The notes under the pieces were generated by a model, which made no database searches, was not told the origin of the DNA, and saw nothing but the letters and a program-made list of their open reading frames with translations. Shown here one piece after another: positions 209 through 27,758 of a stretch of 42,341 nucleotides of DNA. The DNA is taken from IMG/VR virus record IMGVR_UViG_3300027797_000053, positions 1 through 42,341 of that record; one strand, 5' to 3'. This DNA is from a virus. Numbering within the stretch: position 1 is the first letter of the stretch; the number at the start of each line of letters is the position of its first letter. The position numbers and the translations under genes are program-made.

Positions 209-801
209 AATTCTGATAATTTTTTTCTGTCTGCCAAAACTTTACTCCATTTTGACTTAAATTTTTCATAAAATGTTTGTATTTTTTTTAGTGTCTCAAT
301 AAAGTCCTCATCAACTTTTGACATTTCAGAGTTTATATAAACTCCGGTTGATTCACCAATTGAGAAAAAGAAATCCATATCCATTTCGTTTATTTTTCCG
401 GACCACTCAACATTATTGTCATAAACATTCAATTTATTAAATTCGACCAATTCACTAACGTCAGATCTAAATTCATTCATACTGTCCTGAAAAGCTTTCT
501 TATCATCACTTGTCAACTGTAGTTGGGATTTGTCTTTTGAATGTAGTACCATAATCCCCCCCGATATTTTAAATCCCCTGGTTTTGTCGGATTTTGACTG
601 ATCTTTTTTATCGTCATTCATTTCTTTGTCAGAAACTTCCGCGGTCTCATAATTTGTCGGTACTCTATCCATGTCGTCAAGATCTTCGGTTATAATACCA
701 TGTGTTGTTTTAATACGAGTAACCTCCTCATTTAATGATTGGTTAGTCAATAACTTTCTAGAAGCTTTAAGTAAGTCCCTAATTTCATCCTGTCTATTCA
801 T
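205..801 (-). CDS. Hypothetical protein, acidic, 198 residues
   Basis: I do not recognise this protein. The ATG at 801 (MNRQDEIRDLLK) is chosen over an upstream TTG at 807. It overlaps the amidase gene by 8 bases and its own stop overlaps the next gene by 4, so all three are co-translated. The protein has a helical N-terminus, a low-complexity Asp/Lys/Ser stretch around residues 55-75, and a C-terminal half with a beta segment followed by a long amphipathic helix rich in Lys and Phe. No signal peptide or membrane segment is visible, so it is probably cytoplasmic or a virion component. The position next to an endolysin hints at a late gene but does not define its role. Confidence 0.6.
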   Translation of the reverse strand: MNRQDEIRDLLKASRKLLTNQSLNEEVTRIKTTHGIITEDLDDMDRVPTNYETAEVSDKEMNDDKKDQSKSDKTRGFKISGGIMVLHSKDKSQLQLTSDDKKAFQDSMNEFRSDVSELVEFNKLNVYDNNVEWSGKINEMDMDFFFSIGESTGVYINSEMSKVDEDFIETLKKIQTFYEKFKSKWSKVLADRKKLSEL

Positions 802-1390
802 CTTCAATTTTTTTTAAAAACCATTCAAAATTAAAAGCTGGACTCACATCTGTGTTAAATAACTCAAAGTTACTTTTAGTTAAAATACCTTCGTGTCGTT
901 CAGCTCCATTTATTTTTGTGTTGTGTCCAACACATTCGAGTTTTATTGACAATTCTTCTGACAACTTTTTACACAGTAGGACACAAGATTCCATTTGTTC
1001 TGTGGTGTAGGGTTGCCAAAAAATATAATCTCTCCATTTTCTTTCAAAAATGTCCCCATTATAAATATCACCAATCCAATTAATGTATGAGTTTTTAAGT
1101 GGTACTTTTTCTAACCAACCTAGATTTTCTAATGAAATAACCACGGACTCTTTATTTAACTTTTCCAAAGAAAAGAATTTAAGGTATTTTTCCGGACTTA
1201 GTGTTTGGATTACTTTACCATCTCTGGTAATTATAAAGTTTGGTATTTTTGAATATTTTTTATTATTCCTATACTTTAAAGATTGGACATAGTTAATTGA
1301 GTTTCTTCCGGTATGGGTTAATATTATTTTATTTTTTTTGTTATTTACCTCACCCAGATCCGTAGTGTGTATGTCAATTATATCTATCAT
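794..1390 (-). CDS. N-acetylmuramoyl-L-alanine amidase (Amidase_2/PGRP fold), probable endolysin
   Basis: This enzyme would cleave the amide bond between N-acetylmuramic acid and the stem peptide of peptidoglycan. The fold is recognisable from the N-terminal ILTHTG motif (His26), the strand pair around residues 51-62 (FIITRDGKVIQ), the VVISLENLG strand and the CVGHNTKINGAERHEG block (His156, His166). His26, His156 and His166 sit where AmpD-type amidases hold zinc. The third ligand is His rather than the usual Asp or Cys, and Glu164 stands where a catalytic Lys is common in this family. No signal peptide is visible, so export would need a holin or similar. It lies in a tight overlapping cassette with membrane proteins on both sides, as expected of a lysis module. 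Confidence 0.85.
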   Translation of the reverse strand: MIDIIDIHTTDLGEVNNKKNKIILTHTGRNSINYVQSLKYRNNKKYSKIPNFIITRDGKVIQTLSPEKYLKFFSLEKLNKESVVISLENLGWLEKVPLKNSYINWIGDIYNGDIFERKWRDYIFWQPYTTEQMESCVLLCKKLSEELSIKLECVGHNTKINGAERHEGILTKSNFELFNTDVSPAFNFEWFLKKIEDE

Positions 1391-3910: not shown

Positions 3911-4711
3911 TTACAAATAATCAAATAATTCTGAACTTTCGTTCCTTAATCTCCTCAAAGCTTTATCCTTTATCTGTCTAACCCTTTCTTTTGTCAATCC
4001 AAAATCAGACCCAATGTCCTCTAATGTTCTTGGGGTTCCACTTAATCCGTAATAGTCTTCAACAATTACTCTTTCCCTATCATCTAATATATTAAGGGTT
4101 GACATCATTTTATCTTTTAACTGGGCTTTGGAGTTGAACACTGAATCGGGTGCCTCGGCGTCGTTGTTAACAATTACGTCAATTAATGTATCCCCTTCAC
4201 TGTTTATCGACATATTTAAATCGATAATCGATGGTAAAGATGTAAATCTATCGGCTAATTTTTTACCAGAGTTTTGAACCTCCTTTTTAGCTTTTTGTAG
4301 GTCTTGTACAACATTAACCGGAAGTCTTATCGTTCTAGAGTTATCATTTAATGACTGAATAATACTTTGTTTTACCCACCATACCGCGTATGATATAAAT
4401 CTAAGGTCTTTACTCCAGTCAAAATTCTTAATCGCTTTCATTAAACCTAAATTACCTTCAGCTATTAAATCCTGGAGATCTATTCCTTGATTTTGATATT
4501 TTTTAGCCACCGTAATCACAAATCGTAAATTACCCAATAATAACTCTTCTTCTATTTTGTCCTTTTCAAATTTAGTCGTTTTGTCCATCTTCATTTTTGA
4601 AGCTAGTTCTCTCTCCCTTTCCGGAGTCATGACTCTAAGTTTTCTAATGTCTTTTAAATAATAACATAGTTCTTCCTGATTAATAGGAATCCCAATACCT
4701 TTTTCCCTCAT
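3911..4711 (-). CDS. RNA polymerase sigma-70 family factor, RpoD-like
   Basis: The protein would redirect RNA polymerase to chosen promoters. Region 1.2 is present near the N-terminus (LCYYLKDIRKLRVMTPERE). Regions 2.1-2.4 span about residues 55-132, with NLRFVITVAKKYQNQGIDL, EGNLGLMKAIKNFDW, FISYAVWWVKQSI and RTIRLPVNV. Region 3 (about 135-195) is short and diverged. Region 4 (about 205-260) keeps the helix-turn-helix LEDIGSDFGLTKERVRQI. The spacing and wording match the short primary sigma factors of Bacteroidetes rather than T4 gp55, which suggests capture from a host (inference). At 266 residues it is slightly shorter than the host type. Its ATG overlaps the stop of the upstream gene (ATGA), placing it at the end of the replication operon. 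Confidence 0.93.
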   Translation of the reverse strand: MREKGIGIPINQEELCYYLKDIRKLRVMTPERERELASKMKMDKTTKFEKDKIEEELLLGNLRFVITVAKKYQNQGIDLQDLIAEGNLGLMKAIKNFDWSKDLRFISYAVWWVKQSIIQSLNDNSRTIRLPVNVVQDLQKAKKEVQNSGKKLADRFTSLPSIIDLNMSINSEGDTLIDVIVNNDAEAPDSVFNSKAQLKDKMMSTLNILDDRERVIVEDYYGLSGTPRTLEDIGSDFGLTKERVRQIKDKALRRLRNESSELFDYL

Positions 4712-12443: not shown

Positions 12444-12665
12444 ATGCCAACCAATATAACACTATCATCAGTTTCAGGTTTATCTCCTTTTCACATATAC
12501 GTCTGTGACACTGGTTTCACTACTTGTATTTACGTAAACACAGTTAATCCGATTGATATTCCATATCAAATAACGGTACCATCTGTTTTTTCATCACTAT
12601 CAAGTGTTGTTGTCAATGTTAAGGATAGTAATAATTGTTCATTAAATCAAACTGTATTATTATGA
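12444..12665 (+). CDS. Small virion-associated protein, paralogue of the 22250-22549 product
   Basis: 73 residues beginning MPTNITLSSVSGLSPFHIYV. It aligns over its whole length with the N-terminal part of the 99-residue product at 22250-22549. Shared features are GLxP followed by IYxC, a second Cys about 8 residues later, a Pro-x-x-Phe, and an Asn-x-Cys near the end. Both genes immediately precede a large adhesin-like gene. This suggests an adaptor or chaperone for the tip protein (inference). Its stop overlaps the ATG of the next gene (ATGA). Confidence 0.7.
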   Translation: MPTNITLSSVSGLSPFHIYVCDTGFTTCIYVNTVNPIDIPYQITVPSVFSSLSSVVVNVKDSNNCSLNQTVLL

Positions 12666-14524
12666 TGGTGTCTTGTGGTCCATATTGTATTTTTATTCCT
12701 GGTTATCCATATAGTGGTAATTACGTATTTGCCGGTACTCATAACGGGTTTGATTACTTAACTGGTGATACCGTACCAACATACTACATGTATTACTCAA
12801 TCACTGAGACTAGGTGGTGTTTATCAACGGTTTTGGATGGTCCTTGTGTTCAGTTTGGGGTTTCTGGGTCAACGTCAACTTGTCCAGATTTTGACCCTTC
12901 ATATTTTAACGATATGGGTATTTGTTTAACACCGACACCAACACCGACGGTTAATTGTAGTGTTTTGGATTTTGATTCGGTCCTTAATTGTTTTGTTCCG
13001 GTAACACCAACAGTGACACCAACAAACACGTCCACACCTACACCAACACCAACACCCACTGAAACAGATTTATGTGGTGGTTTTGGGTTTAATTTAACTG
13101 TTTTGTCCGTATCACCCACACCAACACCAACACCAACACCAACACCTACGGTAACCCCCGAAATAACAAGACCATGTAATTTTAATGGTCAAGTAATTTT
13201 TAACACACTGGATGAGTTAATGATTTGTCCTAATAGTGGTGAATTTGTTGATTGTTATACTGGTCAAAAATATATATCCTCACAATTGGTCGTATTACCT
13301 AATGGTGATTTACCAACAATTGGTATTGTTTATAAAATGAACGTTAATAGTACGTCGGTATGTGCGACATTTAATGGGTTGGTCGACAATATAAGTGGTG
13401 TCGATGAAATAATCATTGTTTCAGTATTCGGTCCGGTAAATGATGGTAGTTGTTTATCTTGTGTTCCAGATTCTACACCAACACCTACACCTACGGTAAC
13501 ATCTACAATGACCCCAACACCTACAGTTTCATTACCAGTATGTAATGAATACATTGTGTCTAATACTATCCCTTTTGAGTCTTCTTTTGACTATTTAGAC
13601 TGTTATACAAATGAACTCATCACCCAGATGATTGGTCCAAACGGTTCAATAACAATTTGTTCTAAAAAAGAACCTTCTGGTCCTTCTAACATATCTTGGG
13701 ATTTAACTGGTATTAATTGTTACCCAATAACTCCAACACCCACTCCGACACAAACACAAACAAAAACACCTACACCTACTCCGACACAAACACCTACAAT
13801 GACCCCTAGTCAAACACCACCACCGTGTGTGTTTATGATAACGGTTGATACGACTATAACTAACATGTCGACAACAGCTGGGAATAGATTTAAATTACCT
13901 AACACGCCGTATTGGTCCAATGTTACCGTTGAATGGGGTGATGGTAATGTTGAGGTTCTTGGTGGTGGATCACATGTAGCTCACATATACCCTATTGGTG
14001 GGGTTTATCAAATAAAGATGTACGCTAATCCTGGTGGATCTTTAATTGGGTTAAACTTTAGTGCGGGAAGTAACGATGAGATAAAGTTATTAAGTATTGA
14101 TTCTTGGTGTGGTTTCATACCGAGTGAGGATGATAATCTTTATAACGCTATTAACTTAAATCTATTATCGACAGTGGGGGTTCCAAATATTCCTTTGGGT
14201 ATTTCAACTGGGTATCTTGGTTCTGGTGCTTGGAATATATTTGAGGGTACATTAGTAACCAATATTAATAATGTTGGGTCCTGGGACGTTTCTGATCTTA
14301 ACTTAATTTCTTGGGGTAGTGGTGGTGGTCCAATTACTGGTATCAACCTTACACCGTCTAATTATAACTCTTTATTAATTGGGTGGGCTTCTTTGGGGTC
14401 TTCGTTAGAGACCGGTGTTGTGTTTGACGCTGGTACGTCCCAATATAACGCTATCGCGACTTCATCTAGGAATTATTTAATTTTAACTAAAGGGTGGTTA
14501 ATTACCGACGGTGGTATCATATAA
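12662..14524 (+). CDS. Pro-Thr-rich fibre or adhesin with BspA-type C-terminal domain, 620 residues
   Basis: ATG at 12662 overlaps the preceding stop. Short cysteine-containing globular segments alternate with Thr-Pro linkers at about residues 85-95, 115-135, 150-167, 270-288 and 357-387. The C-terminal 230 residues contain VTVEWGDGNVE with HIYP, a PKD/BspA-like strand pattern. They end in YNSLLIGWASLG, GVVFDAGTSQYN and LTKGWLITDGG, the closing pattern of BspA/DUF285-type surface proteins of Bacteroidetes. It is probably a receptor-binding tail fibre or virion adhesin. Unlike all other virion genes here it is on the plus strand, between the primase and resolvase genes, and it ends at a terminator. 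Confidence 0.8.
   Translation: MMVSCGPYCIFIPGYPYSGNYVFAGTHNGFDYLTGDTVPTYYMYYSITETRWCLSTVLDGPCVQFGVSGSTSTCPDFDPSYFNDMGICLTPTPTPTVNCSVLDFDSVLNCFVPVTPTVTPTNTSTPTPTPTPTETDLCGGFGFNLTVLSVSPTPTPTPTPTPTVTPEITRPCNFNGQVIFNTLDELMICPNSGEFVDCYTGQKYISSQLVVLPNGDLPTIGIVYKMNVNSTSVCATFNGLVDNISGVDEIIIVSVFGPVNDGSCLSCVPDSTPTPTPTVTSTMTPTPTVSLPVCNEYIVSNTIPFESSFDYLDCYTNELITQMIGPNGSITICSKKEPSGPSNISWDLTGINCYPITPTPTPTQTQTKTPTPTPTQTPTMTPSQTPPPCVFMITVDTTITNMSTTAGNRFKLPNTPYWSNVTVEWGDGNVEVLGGGSHVAHIYPIGGVYQIKMYANPGGSLIGLNFSAGSNDEIKLLSIDSWCGFIPSEDDNLYNAINLNLLSTVGVPNIPLGISTGYLGSGAWNIFEGTLVTNINNVGSWDVSDLNLISWGSGGGPITGINLTPSNYNSLLIGWASLGSSLETGVVFDAGTSQYNAIATSSRNYLILTKGWLITDGGII
13001..13157 (+). repeat. Thr-Pro-coding hexanucleotide tracts in the plus-strand fibre gene (first cluster)
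   Basis: Two runs (13001-13065 and 13114-13157) of near-perfect ACACCA/ACACCT hexamers encode Thr-Pro. Their length changes would be in frame. Further runs lie at 13473-13527 and 13731-13822. Confidence 0.85.
13473..13527 (+). repeat. Thr-Pro-coding hexanucleotide tract (second cluster)
   Basis: An ACACCT/ACACCA-type run encoding alternating Thr and Pro, interrupted by a Thr-Met-Thr segment. Confidence 0.8.
13731..13822 (+). repeat. Thr-Pro/Thr-Gln-coding tract (third cluster)
   Basis: A degenerate hexamer run encoding Thr-Pro and Thr-Gln repeats directly before the C-terminal BspA-type domain, where it acts as a linker. Confidence 0.8.
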
Positions 14525-17881: not shown

Positions 17882-19837
17882 TTAGAATATTTTTTTAGGT
17901 GGATTATTGACCAAAATTTCACAACAATCACAGTTGCTAACACTAACTTGTCCAATTGATAATGACATACTTAAATTGTTCCCTTTACAGAATCCAATAT
18001 TTGGTGTCAAAATATCGTCGGTGTATGTACCGGTAATAGTGTTGTTCCCAGTCAGTACAAGTGTTGCGGATCTGTTGTATGTCTCCTCAATACCCGTAAA
18101 TAATGGTGGACAACTATTTAAAGCTGGGATTATAGATGATGTTCCATTTATTATTGGTAATTGACCGTAACCATTAACGGTAACCACACAGTCGTAGGTT
18201 GGGGTTGGGTCTACGAATCTCTTCCAATACTTAAAGACACTTTGTTGGTCCAAATCAAACGAAATTGAAGTTCCTACTGGTAATGGGTTGTCTAGTGAAA
18301 TTGTGAATGAATTTGTACTAACATTTAATGATAATGTTAAGTTATAAGTGGTTATGTTTGACGGTGTTAAGATTACCGAACTATTTGATATACTTCCAGT
18401 GGAGTCTTTAACAAATAATAGATAATTCCCCGCTGATAAATTTAAGAACAATGGTGTTAACTGATATGTAACACCCCCGTTTATTGAATATTCGTAAGGT
18501 GGTACCCCAGTACCAACGTTAAACGTTATACTTCCATCATCACCACATACTGGTTGATTTACAGAAGCTTTAAATTTAATTATTGATAATGGGACACAAG
18601 GTCCAACATTAATGATCACTGATGATATGATTGATGTTCCAATAACCACCCACCCAACTGTTGGTGGTGTTACCGGATTTGAGTTGACAAATTGTCCTTG
18701 GAACGGCCCATCAACTACCCAATTCGATGTTATTCCGGTATTCCAGTATAGGTTATAGTCACCACCAATTGATGACCATTCTGGTTGTCCATTTATATAC
18801 CCGATAGGGTATAGTTCTTCCTGGTATATAATATCTTTGACCACATATTCATTTAATGATAGATCAAAATATGATATTGATTGAACATATGTTAAACATA
18901 GATTATCACCAATAAGTGTTGTCGTTGTGGTTATTGGTATTATTGTGGTTGTGGTTGTCACGATTGACTCTAAAACACATGTTGTTTTAACAACAAAATC
19001 ACCGTAATAATCGGTAACTGTCGCTGGGTATTCACCAACATTTAAATTACTTATTACAGTACTAATACTACCGTTTTCCCAATTTATTTGATATGGTGGT
19101 GTACCTCCGGTTATAATCAGTGTTAACATACCATCGAACGATGTTGTTGTTGACGGATCTACCGATAAACATTGAACACCCATTGGGTATATTGTTAAAA
19201 CGTCACATTCGTTACCTCGTTTAAGTGGTATTGGGTTTGGTTTATAATATGTCGTTGTTGTTGTCGTTATTCCTGTTTGTGGTGTTTCACTTGGGGTTGG
19301 GGTTGGGGTCAAAAATGGTGTTAGGGTTGGTGTAGGTGTTGGGGTTGGTGTAACTGAACAAGGATGTGATGACTCACAAATCACACAATGTGAGTATAAA
19401 ACACCATCAAACGACAGTGTGGTAACATCGATGTATTGGACTGGGTCACAACTGTATATTGGTGGGGTTTGATTATCACCAAAGCTGACCATCTCAAAAC
19501 ACCCATTGAATATTTGGTTCGGGTTTGAGGATGATATAGCTTGGTTAATGTAATAGGTTTGTCCTGTTGTGGCTGAACTAAACACCGGTGAAGTACTCAA
19601 TCCCTTGAACGATATTAATTCACCGTTACAGCATCCACTCAAACAGTACGTTTCGTCTGATTTATTTAGTTGGGTGACTAAGATATTGACGGATGGTGAT
19701 GTTACAAATCCGGAACTTAAATAATAAATTAGACTGGGGGTTAAACTAATTACTTTAGTTATACCATTAGCATCAACAAAATTAAATCCATTATAAGTAC
19801 TTGTTCCAGTATTTTGTACCGAATATATATAAGCCAT
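17882..19837 (-). CDS. Virion adhesin-like protein with SprB-type repeats and Pro-Thr linker, 651 residues
   Basis: The N-terminus (MAYIYSVQNTGTSTYNG) is similar in style to the next virion gene. A cysteine-containing domain is followed by a Thr-Pro tract (about 162-184) and Thr runs. At least two SprB-type repeats follow: GGTPPYQINWENG with the NLNVGEYPATVTD ending, and CGDDGSITFNVG with GVPPYEYSINGG and LSAGNYLLFVKDS. The C-terminus is Cys-rich (SNCDCCEI). SprB repeats are known from gliding adhesins of Flavobacteria. Here they probably form stalk domains of a tail appendage. The gene is preceded by TATTTAT. Confidence 0.78.
   Translation of the reverse strand: MAYIYSVQNTGTSTYNGFNFVDANGITKVISLTPSLIYYLSSGFVTSPSVNILVTQLNKSDETYCLSGCCNGELISFKGLSTSPVFSSATTGQTYYINQAISSSNPNQIFNGCFEMVSFGDNQTPPIYSCDPVQYIDVTTLSFDGVLYSHCVICESSHPCSVTPTPTPTPTLTPFLTPTPTPSETPQTGITTTTTTYYKPNPIPLKRGNECDVLTIYPMGVQCLSVDPSTTTSFDGMLTLIITGGTPPYQINWENGSISTVISNLNVGEYPATVTDYYGDFVVKTTCVLESIVTTTTTIIPITTTTTLIGDNLCLTYVQSISYFDLSLNEYVVKDIIYQEELYPIGYINGQPEWSSIGGDYNLYWNTGITSNWVVDGPFQGQFVNSNPVTPPTVGWVVIGTSIISSVIINVGPCVPLSIIKFKASVNQPVCGDDGSITFNVGTGVPPYEYSINGGVTYQLTPLFLNLSAGNYLLFVKDSTGSISNSSVILTPSNITTYNLTLSLNVSTNSFTISLDNPLPVGTSISFDLDQQSVFKYWKRFVDPTPTYDCVVTVNGYGQLPIINGTSSIIPALNSCPPLFTGIEETYNRSATLVLTGNNTITGTYTDDILTPNIGFCKGNNLSMSLSIGQVSVSNCDCCEILVNNPPKKIF
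19291..19354 (-). repeat. Thr-Pro-coding hexanucleotide tract in the 651-residue virion gene
   Basis: A GGGGTT/GGTGTT-type run on the plus strand encodes TPTPTPTPTLTP-like residues on the minus strand, with one interruption. Confidence 0.8.
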
Positions 19838-19866: not shown

Positions 19867-20838
19867 TTATTTTTTTAAGTATGATTTCATTACTTCAATG
19901 TATTTTATTGTCGAACTAGTAGGGTCGATATAATCAAAATGTGTAATATCCTCAGACAATTTAAGTAATGGGTCCACATTTATGTAGTCACCTTTAAAAA
20001 ATTTAGTACTTTTTAAATTTTCAGTAACCCCAGCCATATGTAATATGGGTGTTTTTTCGTATTTTTCAATTGTGTCTGTCGCCCATGAAAAATCCAACTT
20101 TTCTGTGACTTTAGTTTCATGATCGTGTAACCATAAGTTCCACAATAATGACCACATTTCAGCTGTCCAAAATTGTATCTGTCCTGGATTGATCGGGAAT
20201 CTTTTTTGATAGTCCATCATTTGGTTATAAAGGGGTGTTGAGTCACAATATATTTTACACCACAGCTCACTGTTTGTATTTTTAATTAGGTATTGTCCTC
20301 CACCAGAATTTTCTTGATTATCTTTAATTACGTTAACATCGACCCCAACAACTTCGGTCATTTCCTCAAGTAATTGGTTTTTATATGTACCAAAATGTTG
20401 GTTTTCATATTTACGACAACAAGCTATAATGTAATCATAACCAATATATCCAATTGTATTCGACATATAAATTATGTCATCGTTAATTAGTGTTTCAAAA
20501 TCTGGTAATTCCCTAAAAATAATGTCCGCGTCATGTAAGAAAAATAACTTACCTCGACTCTCATCTTCTTCAATCCACTTATATAGTAAAAATGGTTTAA
20601 TACTTGGTATATATGATTTTTTTTCTCGATTGTCAATATAAAAATGGACATTTACCCCAATGTCCCTCAATTTTTGACCCTCATCGGATGGTGTGTGGTT
20701 CCCGTTAACCAACCCAAAAATAACATGAATATTTTCCGGTTTAATTCCTTTCTCAATAAAATTATGAACGTATACCTTGGATTGCCAATGAAAATATGGG
20801 ACATCTGGTTGTGCAGTTACAAATAATATATTATCCAT
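19867..20838 (-). CDS. Glycosyltransferase-like protein (GT-A type, DxD)
   Basis: The N-terminus has a Rossmann-like beginning (NILFVTAQPDVPYFHWQ). KPFLLYKWIEEDE is followed by the metal and nucleotide-sugar motif FFLHDADIIF (Asp103-Ala-Asp105). Later come NSGGGQYLIKN (about 177-187), FWTAEMWSLLWNLW (223-236) and PILHMAG (His267), in the order seen in GT-A transferases. It would transfer a sugar from a nucleotide donor; the acceptor is unknown. Its position between two adhesin genes suggests modification of virion fibre proteins, perhaps their Thr/Ser-rich stretches. DNA or host-surface modification cannot be excluded. Confidence 0.75.
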   Translation of the reverse strand: MDNILFVTAQPDVPYFHWQSKVYVHNFIEKGIKPENIHVIFGLVNGNHTPSDEGQKLRDIGVNVHFYIDNREKKSYIPSIKPFLLYKWIEEDESRGKLFFLHDADIIFRELPDFETLINDDIIYMSNTIGYIGYDYIIACCRKYENQHFGTYKNQLLEEMTEVVGVDVNVIKDNQENSGGGQYLIKNTNSELWCKIYCDSTPLYNQMMDYQKRFPINPGQIQFWTAEMWSLLWNLWLHDHETKVTEKLDFSWATDTIEKYEKTPILHMAGVTENLKSTKFFKGDYINVDPLLKLSEDITHFDYIDPTSSTIKYIEVMKSYLKK

Positions 20839-20998: not shown

Positions 20999-22231
20999 TT
21001 ATGTAAATTGGCCAGAAAATGTCCAAACACCACCTGTTCTTTTTTCAACCATTAGTGTAGCTCCGGATATGAACATTCTCCAGGATCCGTCAGTGTTTAC
21101 ATCACCAAAATATAAATAACCAGTACTTTGTATATTAACACTTGGTACATATACCATGTCATTTGTTGATCCACTAATTCCAGATCCACCCAATATGACT
21201 GTTCGATCACTACTAATGGTTGAGTTACATGACATGATAAATGATGAATTACCATTTATAACGTTCCCACAACCACCCAAAACGGATGAACAGTTACCGT
21301 TTATTATGTTTTTTACCCCGCCGGTAATTACTGAATAACTACAATTTACGGTATTACAACTACCTCCAACAACTGTTGAATAACTCTCTGTTACGGAATT
21401 TCCCATTCCTAATAATGGACCTCCACCACCAACAACTGATGAGTAGGATCCGGAAACATTGTTTTGGGTTCCTCCACCGACAAATGTAGAAACACATGTT
21501 GATCTATTACCCAAAGCTGGACAACTACCACCACCACCACTAACTACAGATCTAGTACCTGCCGCTGTGTTGTATGATCCACCACCAATTGTTGATCCTC
21601 TACCAGATGATGTGTTGTTGTACCCTCCGGAGATTGATGAGTAATCCGAATCGTTAGTGTTTGATACCCCACCGGAGATCGTCTGACCACCAGACAAAAC
21701 TGGTATAATTGTATTAAATGTCCCCCCAGCTATTGTGTTCCCAAATAAATCCGATGTCGAACTACCTGATGTTATAGTGTTAAATGCCCCCCCAGCTATT
21801 GTGTTCCCATATACATTTGTTGTTGATGTAAGATTCTTAATCATATTTCCACATCCACCTATAATTGACGAGTAGTCGGTTTCTGTTGCATTTCCTCTAC
21901 CCCCGGTAACAACAGAAGCTGTTCCGTTTGTAAAATTATTACTCCCGGACCCAATAAATGATGTTGTACTAAATGATGTGTTATTAAACCCACCACTAAC
22001 AACTGAACAGTTGCCAACCGATGATGACGAAACCCCAATTCTTTGTGATGAATCTGCCCCAGACCCAACTTCATATATTGTACTCCCGGTATAACCCGAT
22101 ATTACTTGTTGGATTGTGGCTTTAAATGAGGATCCCGCTGGGTTTTGTGATATATCCGAAGGATCCACAATGTGTACCCAAGAGTTTATTGGTACTCCTG
22201 AAGCTGGTATTTGGTCGGTTAGAAATGCCAT
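20999..22231 (-). CDS. Tail fibre/adhesin with YadA-type head repeats, 410 residues
   Basis: After an N-terminal virion-type segment (MAFLTDQIPASGVPINSWVH) there are many imperfect repeats of 12-22 residues with the pattern S-x-[VI]-x-GG-x-x-N, for example SVVSGGFNNT, SSISGGYNNTS, STIGGGSYNTA and GNTIAGGTFNTI. These resemble the left-handed beta-roll head repeats of trimeric autotransporter adhesins (YadA/Hep_Hag). The last 60 residues (GYLYFGDVNTDGSWRMF) form a small beta domain of the kind that caps phage fibres. A trimeric fibre is likely. It directly follows the small adaptor-like gene at 22250-22549 and ends before a 160-base gap. Confidence 0.8.
   Translation of the reverse strand: MAFLTDQIPASGVPINSWVHIVDPSDISQNPAGSSFKATIQQVISGYTGSTIYEVGSGADSSQRIGVSSSSVGNCSVVSGGFNNTSFSTTSFIGSGSNNFTNGTASVVTGGRGNATETDYSSIIGGCGNMIKNLTSTTNVYGNTIAGGAFNTITSGSSTSDLFGNTIAGGTFNTIIPVLSGGQTISGGVSNTNDSDYSSISGGYNNTSSGRGSTIGGGSYNTAAGTRSVVSGGGGSCPALGNRSTCVSTFVGGGTQNNVSGSYSSVVGGGGPLLGMGNSVTESYSTVVGGSCNTVNCSYSVITGGVKNIINGNCSSVLGGCGNVINGNSSFIMSCNSTISSDRTVILGGSGISGSTNDMVYVPSVNIQSTGYLYFGDVNTDGSWRMFISGATLMVEKRTGGVWTFSGQFT
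21711..21813 (-). repeat. Near-identical 37-bp DNA repeat inside the YadA-type fibre gene
   Basis: Copies at 21711-21747 and 21777-21813 differ at only a few positions, with a 66-base (22-codon) period, and encode GNTIAGGxFNTI. This points to a recent in-frame duplication. Confidence 0.8.
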
Positions 22232-22249: not shown

Positions 22250-22549
22250 TTACTGGAAGTCATATTGGTCCCCAGTCATAAAATAAAAATTTGTACCATC
22301 CTGAAATAATTTTTTCGGATCAAAATTTTCACAGTATAAAATATGAAATCTTTCACAACCATTGGTGATTATTTTCAACCCGATAGCTGGTGCTGTGTCA
22401 AACGATGGTGGTAAAATATAACTAACAATTGGTGGTACTGTACTGCCTAAGTTGTCAAGTAATACACAATCATCACCGTAGACATTACAGGCGTATATCT
22501 CATACGTAGGTGTTAATCCGGTTATATTAGTTATAATAACCTGTGTCAT
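22250..22549 (-). CDS. Small virion-associated protein, paralogue of the 12444-12665 product
   Basis: 99 residues starting MTQVIITNITGLTPTYEIYA. The first 70 residues align with the plus-strand 73-residue protein: GLTP, IYAC, a second Cys, PPSF and NGC. It then extends by about 27 residues (NFDPKKLFQDGTNFYFMTGD) that the other lacks. It starts within the TAATG junction of the SprB-repeat gene and is followed by the YadA-type fibre. An adaptor or collar between baseplate and fibre is a reasonable inference. Confidence 0.7.
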   Translation of the reverse strand: MTQVIITNITGLTPTYEIYACNVYGDDCVLLDNLGSTVPPIVSYILPPSFDTAPAIGLKIITNGCERFHILYCENFDPKKLFQDGTNFYFMTGDQYDFQ

Positions 22550-24741
22550 TATGGGATTGTGGTTGTAGTTGTTATTGGTGGTAACCCACAGTCAATACAT
22601 GAAATATCATAAACAATTTTTAAATTAATTATAAAATTAGACCCGTCATATTGGTTAAAAGTGTACGGTTGACATGATTCTTGAATTTCAGTACAGTCGT
22701 TGTATATTATAATTTCATTTTTATTTATATCAAAATCAACATTTCCAACACCTGGGAATTCTTGTAGTGTTTGTCTCACGGTTTCTAAATACACTAACTC
22801 GTTTGGATAATCGGTTATTCCTGATGAGATATAAAATAAGTTTTGAATGGTGTTTTCATCAATTTTAACTTCAACAATAAATTCAGCTGAATTAACAATA
22901 CACCCAAAGTCATTTAATGTTAAATCGTAAAACCCTTCATTATACATCTGTAGTATACCACGTTTACCTAATTGTCCAGTATTTTTAAACACTTTCTCAC
23001 ATACGGTATATGTTTCATATGACGAAAATAATTTAGTCCCTTTTAATGTGACTGATTTCGTCAAAACACACCCATCTGAGTCGGTAACTTGTAGTGAGTA
23101 GGTTCCGTCTGATAAATTATTTATTGATGGGGTTGTTTGCCCACCAGGGGACCAAAGGTAAGTAAATGGTGGTGACCCAGACGTTATAATTGTTGATATT
23201 TGTCCGTCATTTCCGGTAACCGGGTTAAACGGTACCAACGTGAAAAACACATTCTGACTTGGGTCAACATAAAAATTAGTTAACTGTACACAACCTACGG
23301 TGTCCTGAACGTAAGCGGTATATGTACCTGGAGCTAGTCCATTAAATGTGTTTGATACTTGATATGGGTATGTTACCGGACTACTAGTTGGTCCTATAAT
23401 TTGATAGGTGTATGGTATAATACCACCGGTAGTCGCTACTATTTTTACCGAACCATTATTAAGTCCACAAGTAGTTCTAGTTACGACGGTACTAACTCTA
23501 AATTTATCAATGTTTTTAATTTCAATGGTTTCTTTGTATGAACATACACCGTCATTAATTATTAAGGAATATATACCACTTGATAACCCATTGTAGTTGA
23601 ATACCGTACTATCGTTTATATTAAAAACCGTATTTCCTGATGAGTCAATTAACTGGTAAGTGTATGTCCCGGACGGAACACCGGAATTTAATACTACACT
23701 AATCGACCCGTCTAGATTACTACAAAATGAATTTGTAACTGTTATGTTTGTAATACTAAAACTGTTCGTTGTTACTAAATTTGTCGATCCTGAAGTTGTA
23801 CAAAATCCTGAATCCTGTACAAAAATATTGAAAATACCTGGGGATATGTTTGTAAATGTATACGATGTGGCAAATGATATAACATTTTCACCATTTGACC
23901 CCGAATAGAAGAATGGTCCGGTACCGTCTAATAATTGTACGGTTACTTCACCATCACTAGTAAAACAACTCGGCTGGGTTACGGTTATTAATCCGATATT
24001 AACTGGGTCAACCTTTCCAACACCAACAATATTTGTTAATCTACAACCTAAAGAATCTGTAACTGTTACCGGGTAAAATCCTTGTGTTAGTCCTGTTATT
24101 GTGGATCCAGTTTGACCAACACAACTATATGTGTATGGTGGTGTACCTGTCACACCAGTTACATATATTTTTCCATTTGGTGTACTGACACAACTATAAT
24201 CATCGACCACGTACGTACCAAAGTCCATAGTGTTAGATGTGTAGATTAATGTGGTTTCACTCATACCGGAACAACCACCTTCATCACCCACAGATACATA
24301 ATATGTGTCGGCAGATACTGGGTCAAACACCGCGAATGTACCAGCGTTTTTAACATCAATTATGTTTCCAGATATGTCATATAAAGTGTAAGTGTTTGAT
24401 CCGAACACGGATTGGGTGCTGGCTGTTATTGATCCGTTATCGATCCCACATGTCGTCCCACTCGACATTAAATTCACGGTGACCCCACTAGATATGTTAA
24501 AACCAAAAATACTTGGTGGATCTGGTGTCGCGTCTTGTATATAAACAAAATAACTAAATCCGGTTAAACTAGTAGCTGAATAACTTGTTACCCCAACATC
24601 GGTTGGTAGTAACCCGGTACTGGTCGCTTCATATACGGTGAACGTCGGACTGTCACCGGTAATGTCAAAATAAACAGTACCAAGCCCACTATTTGTACAG
24701 TCACCCGTAACTGAAAGGTTATATATCGAAATGAATCCCAT
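22549..24741 (-). CDS. Virion adhesin with about six SprB repeats, 730 residues
   Basis: The N-terminal 90 residues (MGFISIYNLSVTGDCTNSG) are a beta domain. About residues 95-565 contain roughly six SprB-type repeats. Each has a cysteine and NGSI/DGEI-like start, a GTPPYTY or SPPFTYLW turn and a LxxGxYxxxVxDxxGC ending (for example GLTQGFYPVTVTDSLGC and LSDGTYSLQVTDSDGC). The last 165 residues are a separate domain ending in ITTTTTIP. SprB repeats are characteristic of the cell-surface gliding adhesin SprB of Flavobacteria. In a phage virion they probably build a stalk or receptor-binding arm. The gene joins its neighbours through TAATG overlaps on both sides. Confidence 0.85.
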   Translation of the reverse strand: MGFISIYNLSVTGDCTNSGLGTVYFDITGDSPTFTVYEATSTGLLPTDVGVTSYSATSLTGFSYFVYIQDATPDPPSIFGFNISSGVTVNLMSSGTTCGIDNGSITASTQSVFGSNTYTLYDISGNIIDVKNAGTFAVFDPVSADTYYVSVGDEGGCSGMSETTLIYTSNTMDFGTYVVDDYSCVSTPNGKIYVTGVTGTPPYTYSCVGQTGSTITGLTQGFYPVTVTDSLGCRLTNIVGVGKVDPVNIGLITVTQPSCFTSDGEVTVQLLDGTGPFFYSGSNGENVISFATSYTFTNISPGIFNIFVQDSGFCTTSGSTNLVTTNSFSITNITVTNSFCSNLDGSISVVLNSGVPSGTYTYQLIDSSGNTVFNINDSTVFNYNGLSSGIYSLIINDGVCSYKETIEIKNIDKFRVSTVVTRTTCGLNNGSVKIVATTGGIIPYTYQIIGPTSSPVTYPYQVSNTFNGLAPGTYTAYVQDTVGCVQLTNFYVDPSQNVFFTLVPFNPVTGNDGQISTIITSGSPPFTYLWSPGGQTTPSINNLSDGTYSLQVTDSDGCVLTKSVTLKGTKLFSSYETYTVCEKVFKNTGQLGKRGILQMYNEGFYDLTLNDFGCIVNSAEFIVEVKIDENTIQNLFYISSGITDYPNELVYLETVRQTLQEFPGVGNVDFDINKNEIIIYNDCTEIQESCQPYTFNQYDGSNFIINLKIVYDISCIDCGLPPITTTTTIP

Positions 24742-27700
24742 TAGTTATTACATAGTATATTAAAGTTTATCCCGACGTTAATCTCAAGAGTGTCGGTAGG
24801 TCCAATAGGTACACAATTATTATTATAGACTGAGACGGTTTGTTGTTCTTCATCAATAAAATAACTTAACCCGGAGTCATCCAGTTCACTGAGAGCTTCA
24901 CCCAAAGCGGTAACCCATTGTTGGTTCGTTGGGATACTATTTGAGTACGTTAGTCCGTACCCATTATAAAATGGGTATATGTTTAATATAGTCGTACCGA
25001 TTCTAATGTCAACATACCAATTTGTTTCTAATGTCGATAATAGACAATCGTTATTTAAATCAAGTCCGTTATTTGTGACGTAGGTGTTAAGTGTGTCCGA
25101 TAAAACCACACCAAATGATGTAGTTAAACTATTATTATTCCAAGGATATAGACCACATTCAATGAATTGAGTTGGGCAATCATAAACAAATAGTTGTCCG
25201 GTTATTTTACATGAATTACAAGGTACTGGTAATAATTGACATCCAGCTTGTCTCCTCCATACAAATTTTTGTCTGTGGAATATTGAGTTCTCAAGTCTGA
25301 CACCCCCATTCCATATTGTGGTAGCTGGTACCATTTGTTCGACCAATCTTAACCAATAATCACCCAAACCATTGACATAGTCTATCATGGTTCTATAGGT
25401 GAAGTTGTCATTTGGTATATTTATAGATTCTTGGGATTCCAAATATCTCCAATATATTGATTGTAGGGTTGGGTATCCTCCGGTTTTACCATCATTTATA
25501 TACTGTCTATTTCTAACATTTATGGTGTTTTTCCAAAATGTCTGAGCAAATTCAAAAAATGTTTTTTGTTTTGGTTTTGGTATTATTTCGGTCCAATCTA
25601 TCCCACCTCTTTGTGGGTATGGTGTATTCGGATTTGGGTTACAGTATGTCGGTTCAATATAATTCAAACCTTGTTCTGGGATTGGGTAATTATATTTTCT
25701 TGACATAGACCAAACGTCGTAAGTTAATCCTTGAGCTGGATTTAGAAATATGTCAACGTTTTTAACATTTAACACTAAATTTTCATCATAAGCGACGTAA
25801 TAAGCGTTAAAATTACCATCACTCACATTTCTTAGTGGCCCAACATCATTTGACCAACTTTTATTGTTATCAATGGTTTTTTTAAGTCTAAATCCTAAAT
25901 TCATATATGGGAAATCACGATATCTATTTAGATATTCCTCACCATAGTTAAATGGTTGTAGTATTGTTTGGTAATCAGGGTTGGTTCCTGTGAAAACACT
26001 GTTGGTTAAGTCCACTTGTTCTGGCATTCTATGTTGTGGGGTTGACTCAAACCAACCCCCACCTATTTCAAAAAAGAAATTTTCAGAGAACTGTGGGTTT
26101 GATGGGTACCCATCTTCATCAATAGGGTAATCCAGAATGGTTGTATTCACGTCAGATGTGATTAGTGAGGTTGTGAATCCAGTATAATCTACCCCCATTA
26201 TTGAGAATATATCTGTTGTGTCTAGTGTTGGTAACTCCTGGGTATATGTACCACCTGAAATTTTAGCGTATTGTACACCAAATTCATCCATATCAATTTT
26301 TTGATCAGCTAAATAAACATGTTCGTTAAATTCAACCAAAGCTTCTGGAGCTCCAACAAGTCTTAATAAAATTTCTATTGATTTTCTAGTTCCCTTTGAT
26401 TTGAATAGGTAGGCTGAATTTAAAATTAAATTCCTGTAATATTGGTAATTTAATTCGTCAGGTGTCATTCCCCTAGACCATCCGGTAAATTCGTTTGACC
26501 CGGTATTAAAAACCGAGTTCAGTAATTCATCGTTACTTATTGGTGATATATTTGTTCTCCACCCTAGTGTTTGTGCTAAATTTTTTAATAACTGAGATGG
26601 GATATCATTACCAATATTGTAATTTACAGAATTCATATTTGATAAAGCTGATATAAACTTTTTTGTTTCATCAAAACTTCTACCATATATCTGTAATAAT
26701 TTTTCAAATTTTTGATCTGGGGTGTCGAATTCTTTTAACGCTCCAGTAGTCAGAAATCTCGATATTAAGTTTGTTCTGTATTCGTCAAGTAAATTTGAGT
26801 ATTCATTTAACTTTGATAAGTACTCATCAAATCTTCTAGTTTTAATATCTAAGTTCCATGGTCCTTCTTTAGGGAAGGTTAATATTTCATTTGTAATACT
26901 AAATGACCCGTCCTCATTTTCTCTAGGTATAATAAATGTAGCGGTATATTCAGGGACAACCATTCGATTTAGTAAGAATTTTTCTACCTCATCGAAATCC
27001 TCATTAAAAGATTTATTGGTTGTCAATTTATTCGGTCTAATGTTGTATGGATCGGTAATTACCGTATTTCCCGAAAATGGATTACCAAGTACCACAATTG
27101 TCAATTTTGTATCAATTGATGGGTCTATTGGGTTATAATAAATTACGGGGTATTCAACGTCATAAAAATACAGTGAGTATTTTATATAATTTCTAGTAAA
27201 ATTCCTAAGTGGTGACACTTCAATTTCCTTTAACTCAAAATTTCTATCCGAATTTGTGGTAAAATCAATATCAAATGAATTGTACACATTGTTTAAATTA
27301 ATGTCAAATGTCGTTTCATTTTCAATCTGATCGTACGTGATATTGAAAGCACTGTAATCCGTTCCAAAATTTGGTTGTTGACTATATACTTGTATTGCGG
27401 CTGGAAAAAAATTTATAATTTTAGTGACCGAAACTGACATTCTCTTACTTAATGACCCATATAACGTGAAGTTACTAACTTGTGATAAGTCAAAATTCGG
27501 ATAAACTCTAAAATTTTTAGCTAGTATCGTTCTGGAATCTTCAACACTATCTATATTCATAGAGTTTAGTGATACCGGATCTGAGAATGATCCTATTGTG
27601 AATGTTCTATTTTTCTTCTCACTTAACGCGGTGGTAAACTCAAAATTAGCTTGTGTCAATCCACCCCCAGCTACTAACTGAAATCCAACCAGATTGTCCG

Positions 27701-27758
27701 AAAACGAACCTTCTCCGCTTGGTAATTGTGGTGGACAAGTATATTTTTTTATAGCCAT
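24741..27758 (-). CDS. Baseplate protein with P2 gpI-like domain, 1005 residues
   Basis: The middle of the protein (about residues 430-485) has YRNLILNSAYLFKSKGTRKS followed by LLRLVGAPEALVEF. This is the core motif of P2 gpI-type tail proteins, which form part of the baseplate wedge and link it to tail fibres. The N-terminal 400 residues are beta-rich with a long helical segment (YLSKLNEYSNLLDEYRTNLI). The C-terminal 350 residues include a Trp/Tyr-rich region and a cysteine cluster (GCQLLPVPCNSC). It is much larger than gpI (about 180 residues), as expected for a multi-domain baseplate hub-to-fibre connector. Its position before the adhesins agrees. Confidence 0.75.
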   Translation of the reverse strand: MAIKKYTCPPQLPSGEGSFSDNLVGFQLVAGGGLTQANFEFTTALSEKKNRTFTIGSFSDPVSLNSMNIDSVEDSRTILAKNFRVYPNFDLSQVSNFTLYGSLSKRMSVSVTKIINFFPAAIQVYSQQPNFGTDYSAFNITYDQIENETTFDINLNNVYNSFDIDFTTNSDRNFELKEIEVSPLRNFTRNYIKYSLYFYDVEYPVIYYNPIDPSIDTKLTIVVLGNPFSGNTVITDPYNIRPNKLTTNKSFNEDFDEVEKFLLNRMVVPEYTATFIIPRENEDGSFSITNEILTFPKEGPWNLDIKTRRFDEYLSKLNEYSNLLDEYRTNLISRFLTTGALKEFDTPDQKFEKLLQIYGRSFDETKKFISALSNMNSVNYNIGNDIPSQLLKNLAQTLGWRTNISPISNDELLNSVFNTGSNEFTGWSRGMTPDELNYQYYRNLILNSAYLFKSKGTRKSIEILLRLVGAPEALVEFNEHVYLADQKIDMDEFGVQYAKISGGTYTQELPTLDTTDIFSIMGVDYTGFTTSLITSDVNTTILDYPIDEDGYPSNPQFSENFFFEIGGGWFESTPQHRMPEQVDLTNSVFTGTNPDYQTILQPFNYGEEYLNRYRDFPYMNLGFRLKKTIDNNKSWSNDVGPLRNVSDGNFNAYYVAYDENLVLNVKNVDIFLNPAQGLTYDVWSMSRKYNYPIPEQGLNYIEPTYCNPNPNTPYPQRGGIDWTEIIPKPKQKTFFEFAQTFWKNTINVRNRQYINDGKTGGYPTLQSIYWRYLESQESINIPNDNFTYRTMIDYVNGLGDYWLRLVEQMVPATTIWNGGVRLENSIFHRQKFVWRRQAGCQLLPVPCNSCKITGQLFVYDCPTQFIECGLYPWNNNSLTTSFGVVLSDTLNTYVTNNGLDLNNDCLLSTLETNWYVDIRIGTTILNIYPFYNGYGLTYSNSIPTNQQWVTALGEALSELDDSGLSYFIDEEQQTVSVYNNNCVPIGPTDTLEINVGINFNILCNN

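Follow-up and report, generated by a model that had tools for sequence, protein, structure and literature searches.

What role does a gene built from SprB-type repeats play in the tail region of a phage? The window analysed here, a whole IMG/VR record of 42,341 bases that probably represents part of a larger phage genome, contains one open reading frame of 730 residues, complement(22549..24741), which shares the repeat family PF13573 with SprB of Flavobacterium johnsoniae. This raises the question of whether the phage carries a gliding adhesin, borrowed from its host and able to ride the gliding track as a preliminary description had proposed, or a structural part of its own tail. We refer to the gene as the stalk gene, after the role that we consider most probable.

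Repeat family, predicted architecture and gene neighbourhood

A Pfam search matched the stalk protein to PF13573 in five stretches (E 2.8e-17, 62.5 bits), above the curated Pfam cut-off of 28 bits, which places it in the family and confirms the SprB repeats described earlier for this gene. The match is not due to chance, because 46 of the 47 non-redundant stalk homologues also match PF13573 (E <= 0.001). Searching the window in all six frames, we found four SprB repeats in the stalk gene and two in complement(17882..19837).

The AlphaFold2 (AF2) model of the stalk, built from the 47-member alignment (pLDDT 82), consists of seven beta-sandwich domains followed by a disordered linker, an alpha/beta domain and a disordered tail (Table 1); the arrangement of the domains relative to one another is not reliable in this model (pTM 0.34). 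Comparison by hhalign showed all seven Ig-like domains to be related to one another, in line with the predicted array. The earlier count of about six repeats was right as to their SprB type and low in number, as the model resolves seven, each within a whole Ig-like domain, and the repeats make up the bulk of the gene only as far as its last ~150 residues, which form the different alpha/beta domain and the threonine-rich tail. The neighbouring 1005-residue protein ends in a domain related to this C-terminal one (hhalign probability 95.5, E 1.4e-8), and helices and strands follow in the same order in the models of the two. In domains 2–6 (residues 98–484), two cysteines per domain are invariant across 47 phages; these possibly form disulphides outside the cell, which would not normally be expected of a tail protein that assembles in the cytoplasm.

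Among solved structures, the top match in a fold search was the grappling-hook protein GhpA of Aureispira (9flw, 9flp, 9fly; E 1e-18), which like the stalk is a column of tandem Ig-like repeats, although GhpA is a bacterial protein of 5,898 residues that forms a heptameric filament (PMC13319060) and the stalk a phage protein of 730. The top viral match, in UniProt/BFVD, was full-length: A0A6J5LD72 from an uncultured Caudovirales phage (31% identity, E 2e-56). This protein is called 'SprB repeat' as a database name only, and our literature search gave no paper on phage SprB-repeat proteins.

Table 1. Features of the stalk gene, its surroundings in the window and the cargo loci of related phages (residues refer to the stalk protein)
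Feature	Coordinates	Strand	Basis or content
SprB-repeat stalk protein P0001, 730 aa	22549..24741	-	ORF, Pfam, alignment, AF2
Ig-like domain 1, residues 1-85	24487..24741	-	AF2; hhalign kinship to other domains
Ig-like domain 2, residues 86-167; invariant C98, C157	24241..24486	-	alignment, AF2, hhalign
Ig-like/SprB domain 3, residues 172-243; invariant C184, C233; PPYTY turn	24013..24228	-	six-frame search, alignment, AF2, hhalign
Ig-like/SprB domain 4, residues 246-324; top PF13573 stretch; invariant C259, C314	23770..24006	-	Pfam, alignment, AF2
Ig-like domain 5, residues 326-410; invariant C340, C400	23512..23766	-	alignment, AF2, hhalign
Ig-like/SprB domain 6, residues 412-495; invariant C425, C484	23257..23508	-	six-frame search, alignment, AF2
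Ig-like/SprB domain 7, residues 496-568	23038..23256	-	six-frame search, alignment, AF2
Flexible linker, about residues 569-588; pLDDT <50 over most	22978..23037	-	AF2
C-terminal alpha/beta domain, residues 589-718; kin to C-terminal domain of neighbouring 1005-aa protein	22588..22977	-	hhalign, models
Threonine-rich tail (ITTTTTIP); attachment point of variable C-terminal modules in relatives	22552..22587	-	sequence, relatives
1005-aa baseplate-module protein, conserved, directly upstream; TAATG stop/start overlap with stalk gene	24741..27758	-	57-92% identical in relatives
99-aa gene directly downstream; TAATG stop/start overlap with stalk gene; TPTPT-linked extensions in some relatives	22250..22549	-	sequence, relatives
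Fibre candidate, most variable gene of block	20999..22231	-	nearest-relative comparison
PHROG 4417 protein	19867..20838	-	E 3.5e-72
Second SprB-repeat gene (2 repeats), TPTPT and TTTTT linkers	17882..19837	-	PF13573 E 3.6e-8
TPTPT-linked gene, opposite strand; PKD/DUF285-like C-terminal module matching tips fused to relatives' stalks	12635..14524	+	module comparison
Cargo gene, G083 (291 kb)	L209:7374-9893		signal peptide, SprB repeats, type-B T9SS sorting domain
Cargo gene, G084 (273 kb)	L210:7470-9917		signal peptide, SprB repeats, type-B T9SS sorting domain
Three short ORFs with signal-peptide-like starts, G082	L211:6700-8440		last one has sorting domain

The stop and start codons of the stalk gene overlap those of its neighbours at both ends. 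The upstream region contains baseplate wedge genes resembling gp25 and gp6, a run of unassigned structural genes and then the 1005-residue gene, whose module we label 'baseplate' because of the gp6- and gp25-like genes further upstream; the 1005-residue protein itself belongs to no recognised family, has a low-confidence model and gave no significant match in the fold search. These upstream genes and an invariant neighbour place the stalk gene in a tail or baseplate module, which supports the stalk-like array proposed there before. In most relatives, the PHROG 4417 gene occupies the same slot, with the fibre gene on one side and the second SprB gene on the other. The gene at 12635–14524 is a lone gene on the plus strand that carries TPTPT linkers. 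Elsewhere in the window are a phage-encoded sigma-70-type factor with regions 2 and 4 (3911–4711, minus strand) and a candidate lysis enzyme of the Amidase_2 type (794–1390, minus strand).

A Shine-Dalgarno-like motif was found for one of the 29 genes in the window, and Bacteroidetes usually lack Shine-Dalgarno sequences (PMC9723584). Three of nine long related contigs encode ribosomal protein bS21, on the strand opposite the stalk block. Because of the few Shine-Dalgarno motifs and the bS21 genes of the relatives, the host phylum is likely Bacteroidota, and the earlier view of a phage infecting this phylum holds as probable. In their traits, the relatives of the window resemble the freshwater bS21 jumbo phages reported from lakes, with genomes of up to 331 kb and Bacteroidetes hosts (Chen 2022, PMC9723584); that paper does not mention SprB.

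A constant core with variable tips

At least 576 relatives of the stalk are present in IMG/VR. Non-redundant members, 47 in all, align over residues ~1–720 with 37–86% identity, and no variation in repeat number was seen in this ~720-residue core among the 47 clusters. The 1005-residue gene is 57–92% identical among 45 relatives; used as a query it returned 80 loci, 77 of which extend downstream, and in all 77 the stalk gene lies next to it. In the reverse query, made with the stalk, it was found 3–36 bases upstream of the stalk gene at every one of the 80 loci retrieved. Compared with its nearest relative, the stalk shows a dN of 0.08 and a dS of 1.7 in a gap-free alignment, whereas the fibre candidate, 48% identical to its nearest relative over 70% of its length, shows a dN of 0.46 and 310 gap columns. 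These sequence comparisons indicate that the stalk core evolves as a structural gene, under purifying selection.

The array does not appear to be a recent acquisition. For 329 of 329 phage domains the nearest neighbour is the same-numbered domain of another phage, and a host repeat is never the nearest neighbour of any of them (192 repeats from 30 bacterial loci). The phage domains group by position, and therefore the array was fixed in a common ancestor and then inherited; this clustering across phages rules out recent capture from a host, and the earlier suggestion that the phage had taken the array from its host in this way was not borne out. That the array first arose, long ago, from a repeat protein of bacteria is plausible. 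In annotated phage records, we found no relatives of two neighbouring genes, and for the stalk only a weak match at the level of SprB repeats in one 642-kb phage. L096, considered as a phage relative in bacterial genomes, was rejected, as this sole match on a genome contig is a bacterial SprB-repeat protein.

Variation is found beyond the core. While the core is fixed at ~720 residues, 18 of the 47 clusters carry C-terminal extensions of about 100–675 residues, comprising DUF285 repeats, beta-propeller-like modules and others, often behind TPTPT linkers, so that a constant core is combined with a variable distal part. In one pair of loci, L065 and L066, the core proteins are 96% identical and the DNA around the gene 95% identical; L065 stops after ...CVSC, and in L066 an extension of 514 residues (TPTPT linker and DUF285 tip) starts exactly at the stop codon of the core. 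Tip modules of these types are also carried by further genes of the block, 12635..14524 (+) of the window among them, and the window's own stalk ends in the short threonine-rich tail, with no tip. This gain and loss of tips, seen in L065 and L066 and in the shared modules, is the strongest evidence for the SprB-like core as a mount. That repetitive linker DNA promotes the exchange of tips is only an idea. A Hint-like tip suspected by eye in L079 was not confirmed by Pfam. Four loci with extended stalks (L030, L039, L043 and L045) have an extra gene of ~730 residues between the stalk and the 99-residue gene, which by BLAST is not a copy of the stalk.

Ig-like domains are common in phage particles; here, a widespread lineage has locked one array as a stalk. 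The kind of stalk is already known, and what is new is the fixed architecture of an SprB-like stalk together with its swappable tips. A stalk that has gained and lost tips is a clear natural case of how tail tips evolve as modules in uncultured phages of Bacteroidota.

Possible functions of the stalk

With moderate confidence, we interpret the protein as a structural stalk of the tail or baseplate, that is, a conserved column with interchangeable tips. Its seven SprB-type Ig-like domains would form an extended column, ended by the C-terminal alpha/beta domain common to the adjacent baseplate-module protein, and the stalk would keep variable receptor- or matrix-binding tips at a distance from the baseplate. 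The tips would be fused to its C-terminus, often via Thr/Pro linkers, or would possibly be provided by neighbouring genes. From the position of the gene we infer that the protein is present in the virion; its N-terminus would be proximal and its C-terminus distal, with the tips binding the host.

Because the core carries no tip in more than half of the clusters, it is possibly a binder itself. The SprB-type array would then be an adhesin in its own right, binding weakly and at multiple points to envelope polysaccharide or surface polymers of the host or matrix, an explanation that we regard as unlikely. It agrees with the ability of phage Ig-like domains to mediate adhesion (PMC13370021), with the place of F. 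johnsoniae SprB among carbohydrate-binding, T9SS-exported surface adhesins (PMC11205867) and with the many relatives whose core lacks a tip; however, a core under purifying selection, whose repeat number is fixed and in which no domain is hypervariable, is unlike a host-range determinant, and the variation sits in the tips and in the next fibre gene. Another reading, which is rather improbable, makes the protein a decoration or whisker protein with Ig-like domains that sits on the tail, neck or head and serves particle stability or weak general adhesion, instead of a stalk for receptor binding. By sequence profile, its nearest solved chains are indeed the neck-whisker protein gp24 (9occ, E 8e-5) and phage decoration proteins (5lxk, E 0.003), but the gene follows baseplate genes and the C-terminal tips are of adhesin-like types.

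SprB has a signal peptide, a type-B sorting domain and an SprF partner, whereas the stalk is without all three. By inspection, we found no Sec signal peptide in the stalk, the N-terminus of which (MGFISIYNLSVTGDCTNSG) has no hydrophobic signal segment. No type B T9SS sorting domain (TIGR04131) was detected in the stalk protein or the window, and the PorP/SprF partner (TIGR03519) is absent from the window; as a positive control, the bacterial genome G001 gave 42 and 17 matches to the two models, respectively. SprB is also far larger than the 730-residue stalk, which lacks the C-terminal region of SprB that reportedly facilitates secretion and propulsion. Judged by these features, the stalk is a PF13573 protein and not a gliding adhesin of the SprB type. 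Membership of the repeat family is no sign of gliding, because the family is widespread in bacteria: PF13573 occurs in 16 of 80 sampled Bacteroidota genomes, often in many genes, and also in a secreted fucoidanase (PMC7698502). That the phage uses the stalk to ride on or engage the moving SprB or gliding machinery, as suggested before, is not supported and highly improbable: the common repeat family and the proposal that phage receptors of F. columnare are likely part of the gliding machinery, as also proposed for F. johnsoniae (PMC7345892), stand against the missing export features, partner and C-terminal region, and against the observation that gliding swarms carry non-infecting phages by fluid flow, mostly without binding (PMC10434198).

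A second SprB-repeat protein in related phages

The link to gliding adhesins, which fails for the stalk gene, fits another gene, absent from the 42-kb window, that in relatives carries a T9SS sorting domain. The control search for this domain matched three long related phage contigs (G082, G083 and G084). In G083 and G084, a gene of ~815–820 residues located far from the stalk block, which we call the cargo gene, combines a signal peptide (judged by inspection for all cargo genes), SprB repeats, a PKD-like domain and a type-B T9SS sorting domain; a signal peptide and a T9SS sorting domain in one phage gene were seen in relatives only. In G082, three short ORFs occupy the corresponding position. 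The cargo family comprises 43 loci in IMG/VR, and among 20 aligned members the sorting domain (CHU_C) is found in all and SprB repeats in 16.

TIGR04131 was matched above its cut-off by the G083 and G084 genes and in the phage records LR745206 and LR756502. The LR745206 cargo has 732 residues and 48% identity. In LR756502.1 (642-kb phage), the gene at L275:404-5416 encodes 1670 residues with a signal peptide, 13 SprB repeats, a PKD domain and a type-B sorting domain, by sequence the architecture of a small SprB; it is an SprB-type relative of the cargo, with no full-length alignment. LR745206 and LR756502 are presumably the 634- and 642-kb Al-Shayeb genomes, with which they agree in length. 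The phage genomes of these sizes are complete, manually curated and circularised, with Bacteroidetes hosts predicted (Al-Shayeb 2020, PMC7162821).

All viral cargo sequences tested, including that of LR745206, form one clade apart from their bacterial relatives (100/99 support). Cargo and stalk lie on one contig in G083, G094 and G104, which are probably one virus, and also in G084, and thus in at least two distinct relatives (G083, 291 kb; G084, 273 kb). We rule out that the cargo gene came from contaminating host DNA, since it shares contigs with the stalk, belongs to this monophyletic viral family and occurs also in LR745206 and LR756502. Seven pieces of the 160-kb partial contig of G081, the window's nearest relative, were searched and gave no match to the cargo or to the genes beside it.

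On the strength of its domains, the second SprB-repeat protein of the relatives is predicted to be a phage-encoded T9SS cargo of the gliding-adhesin type. T9SS cargo encoded by phages has a precedent in cryophages (Bellas 2020, PMC7468147), but there the sorting domains are of type A and sit on variable genes of the enzyme and PA14 kinds, whereas the cargo of the relatives is of type B, has SprB repeats and makes up a single conserved family among viruses. This type A case is the sole precedent that we found (PMC7468147), and no type B phage cargo with SprB repeats was found in the literature searched.

The existence of a conserved viral family of predicted T9SS cargo, of type B and with SprB repeats, would mean that phages place proteins resembling gliding adhesins on the surface of their hosts. 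This finding matters more than the stalk, and allows a direct test of phage control over host adhesion, motility or superinfection. Tentatively, large Bacteroidota phages might combine an SprB-like stalk with exchangeable tips in the virion and a T9SS-exported SprB-repeat protein on the host surface. There, the latter could travel on the gliding track or jam it, make cells stick together or prevent superinfection. The cargo genes of L209, L210 and L211 adjoin genes for an FKBP-type isomerase and a GMP reductase. At these three loci, many small phage proteins start with a motif like MKxxITESDIxRI, which is possibly a common processing or packaging signal.
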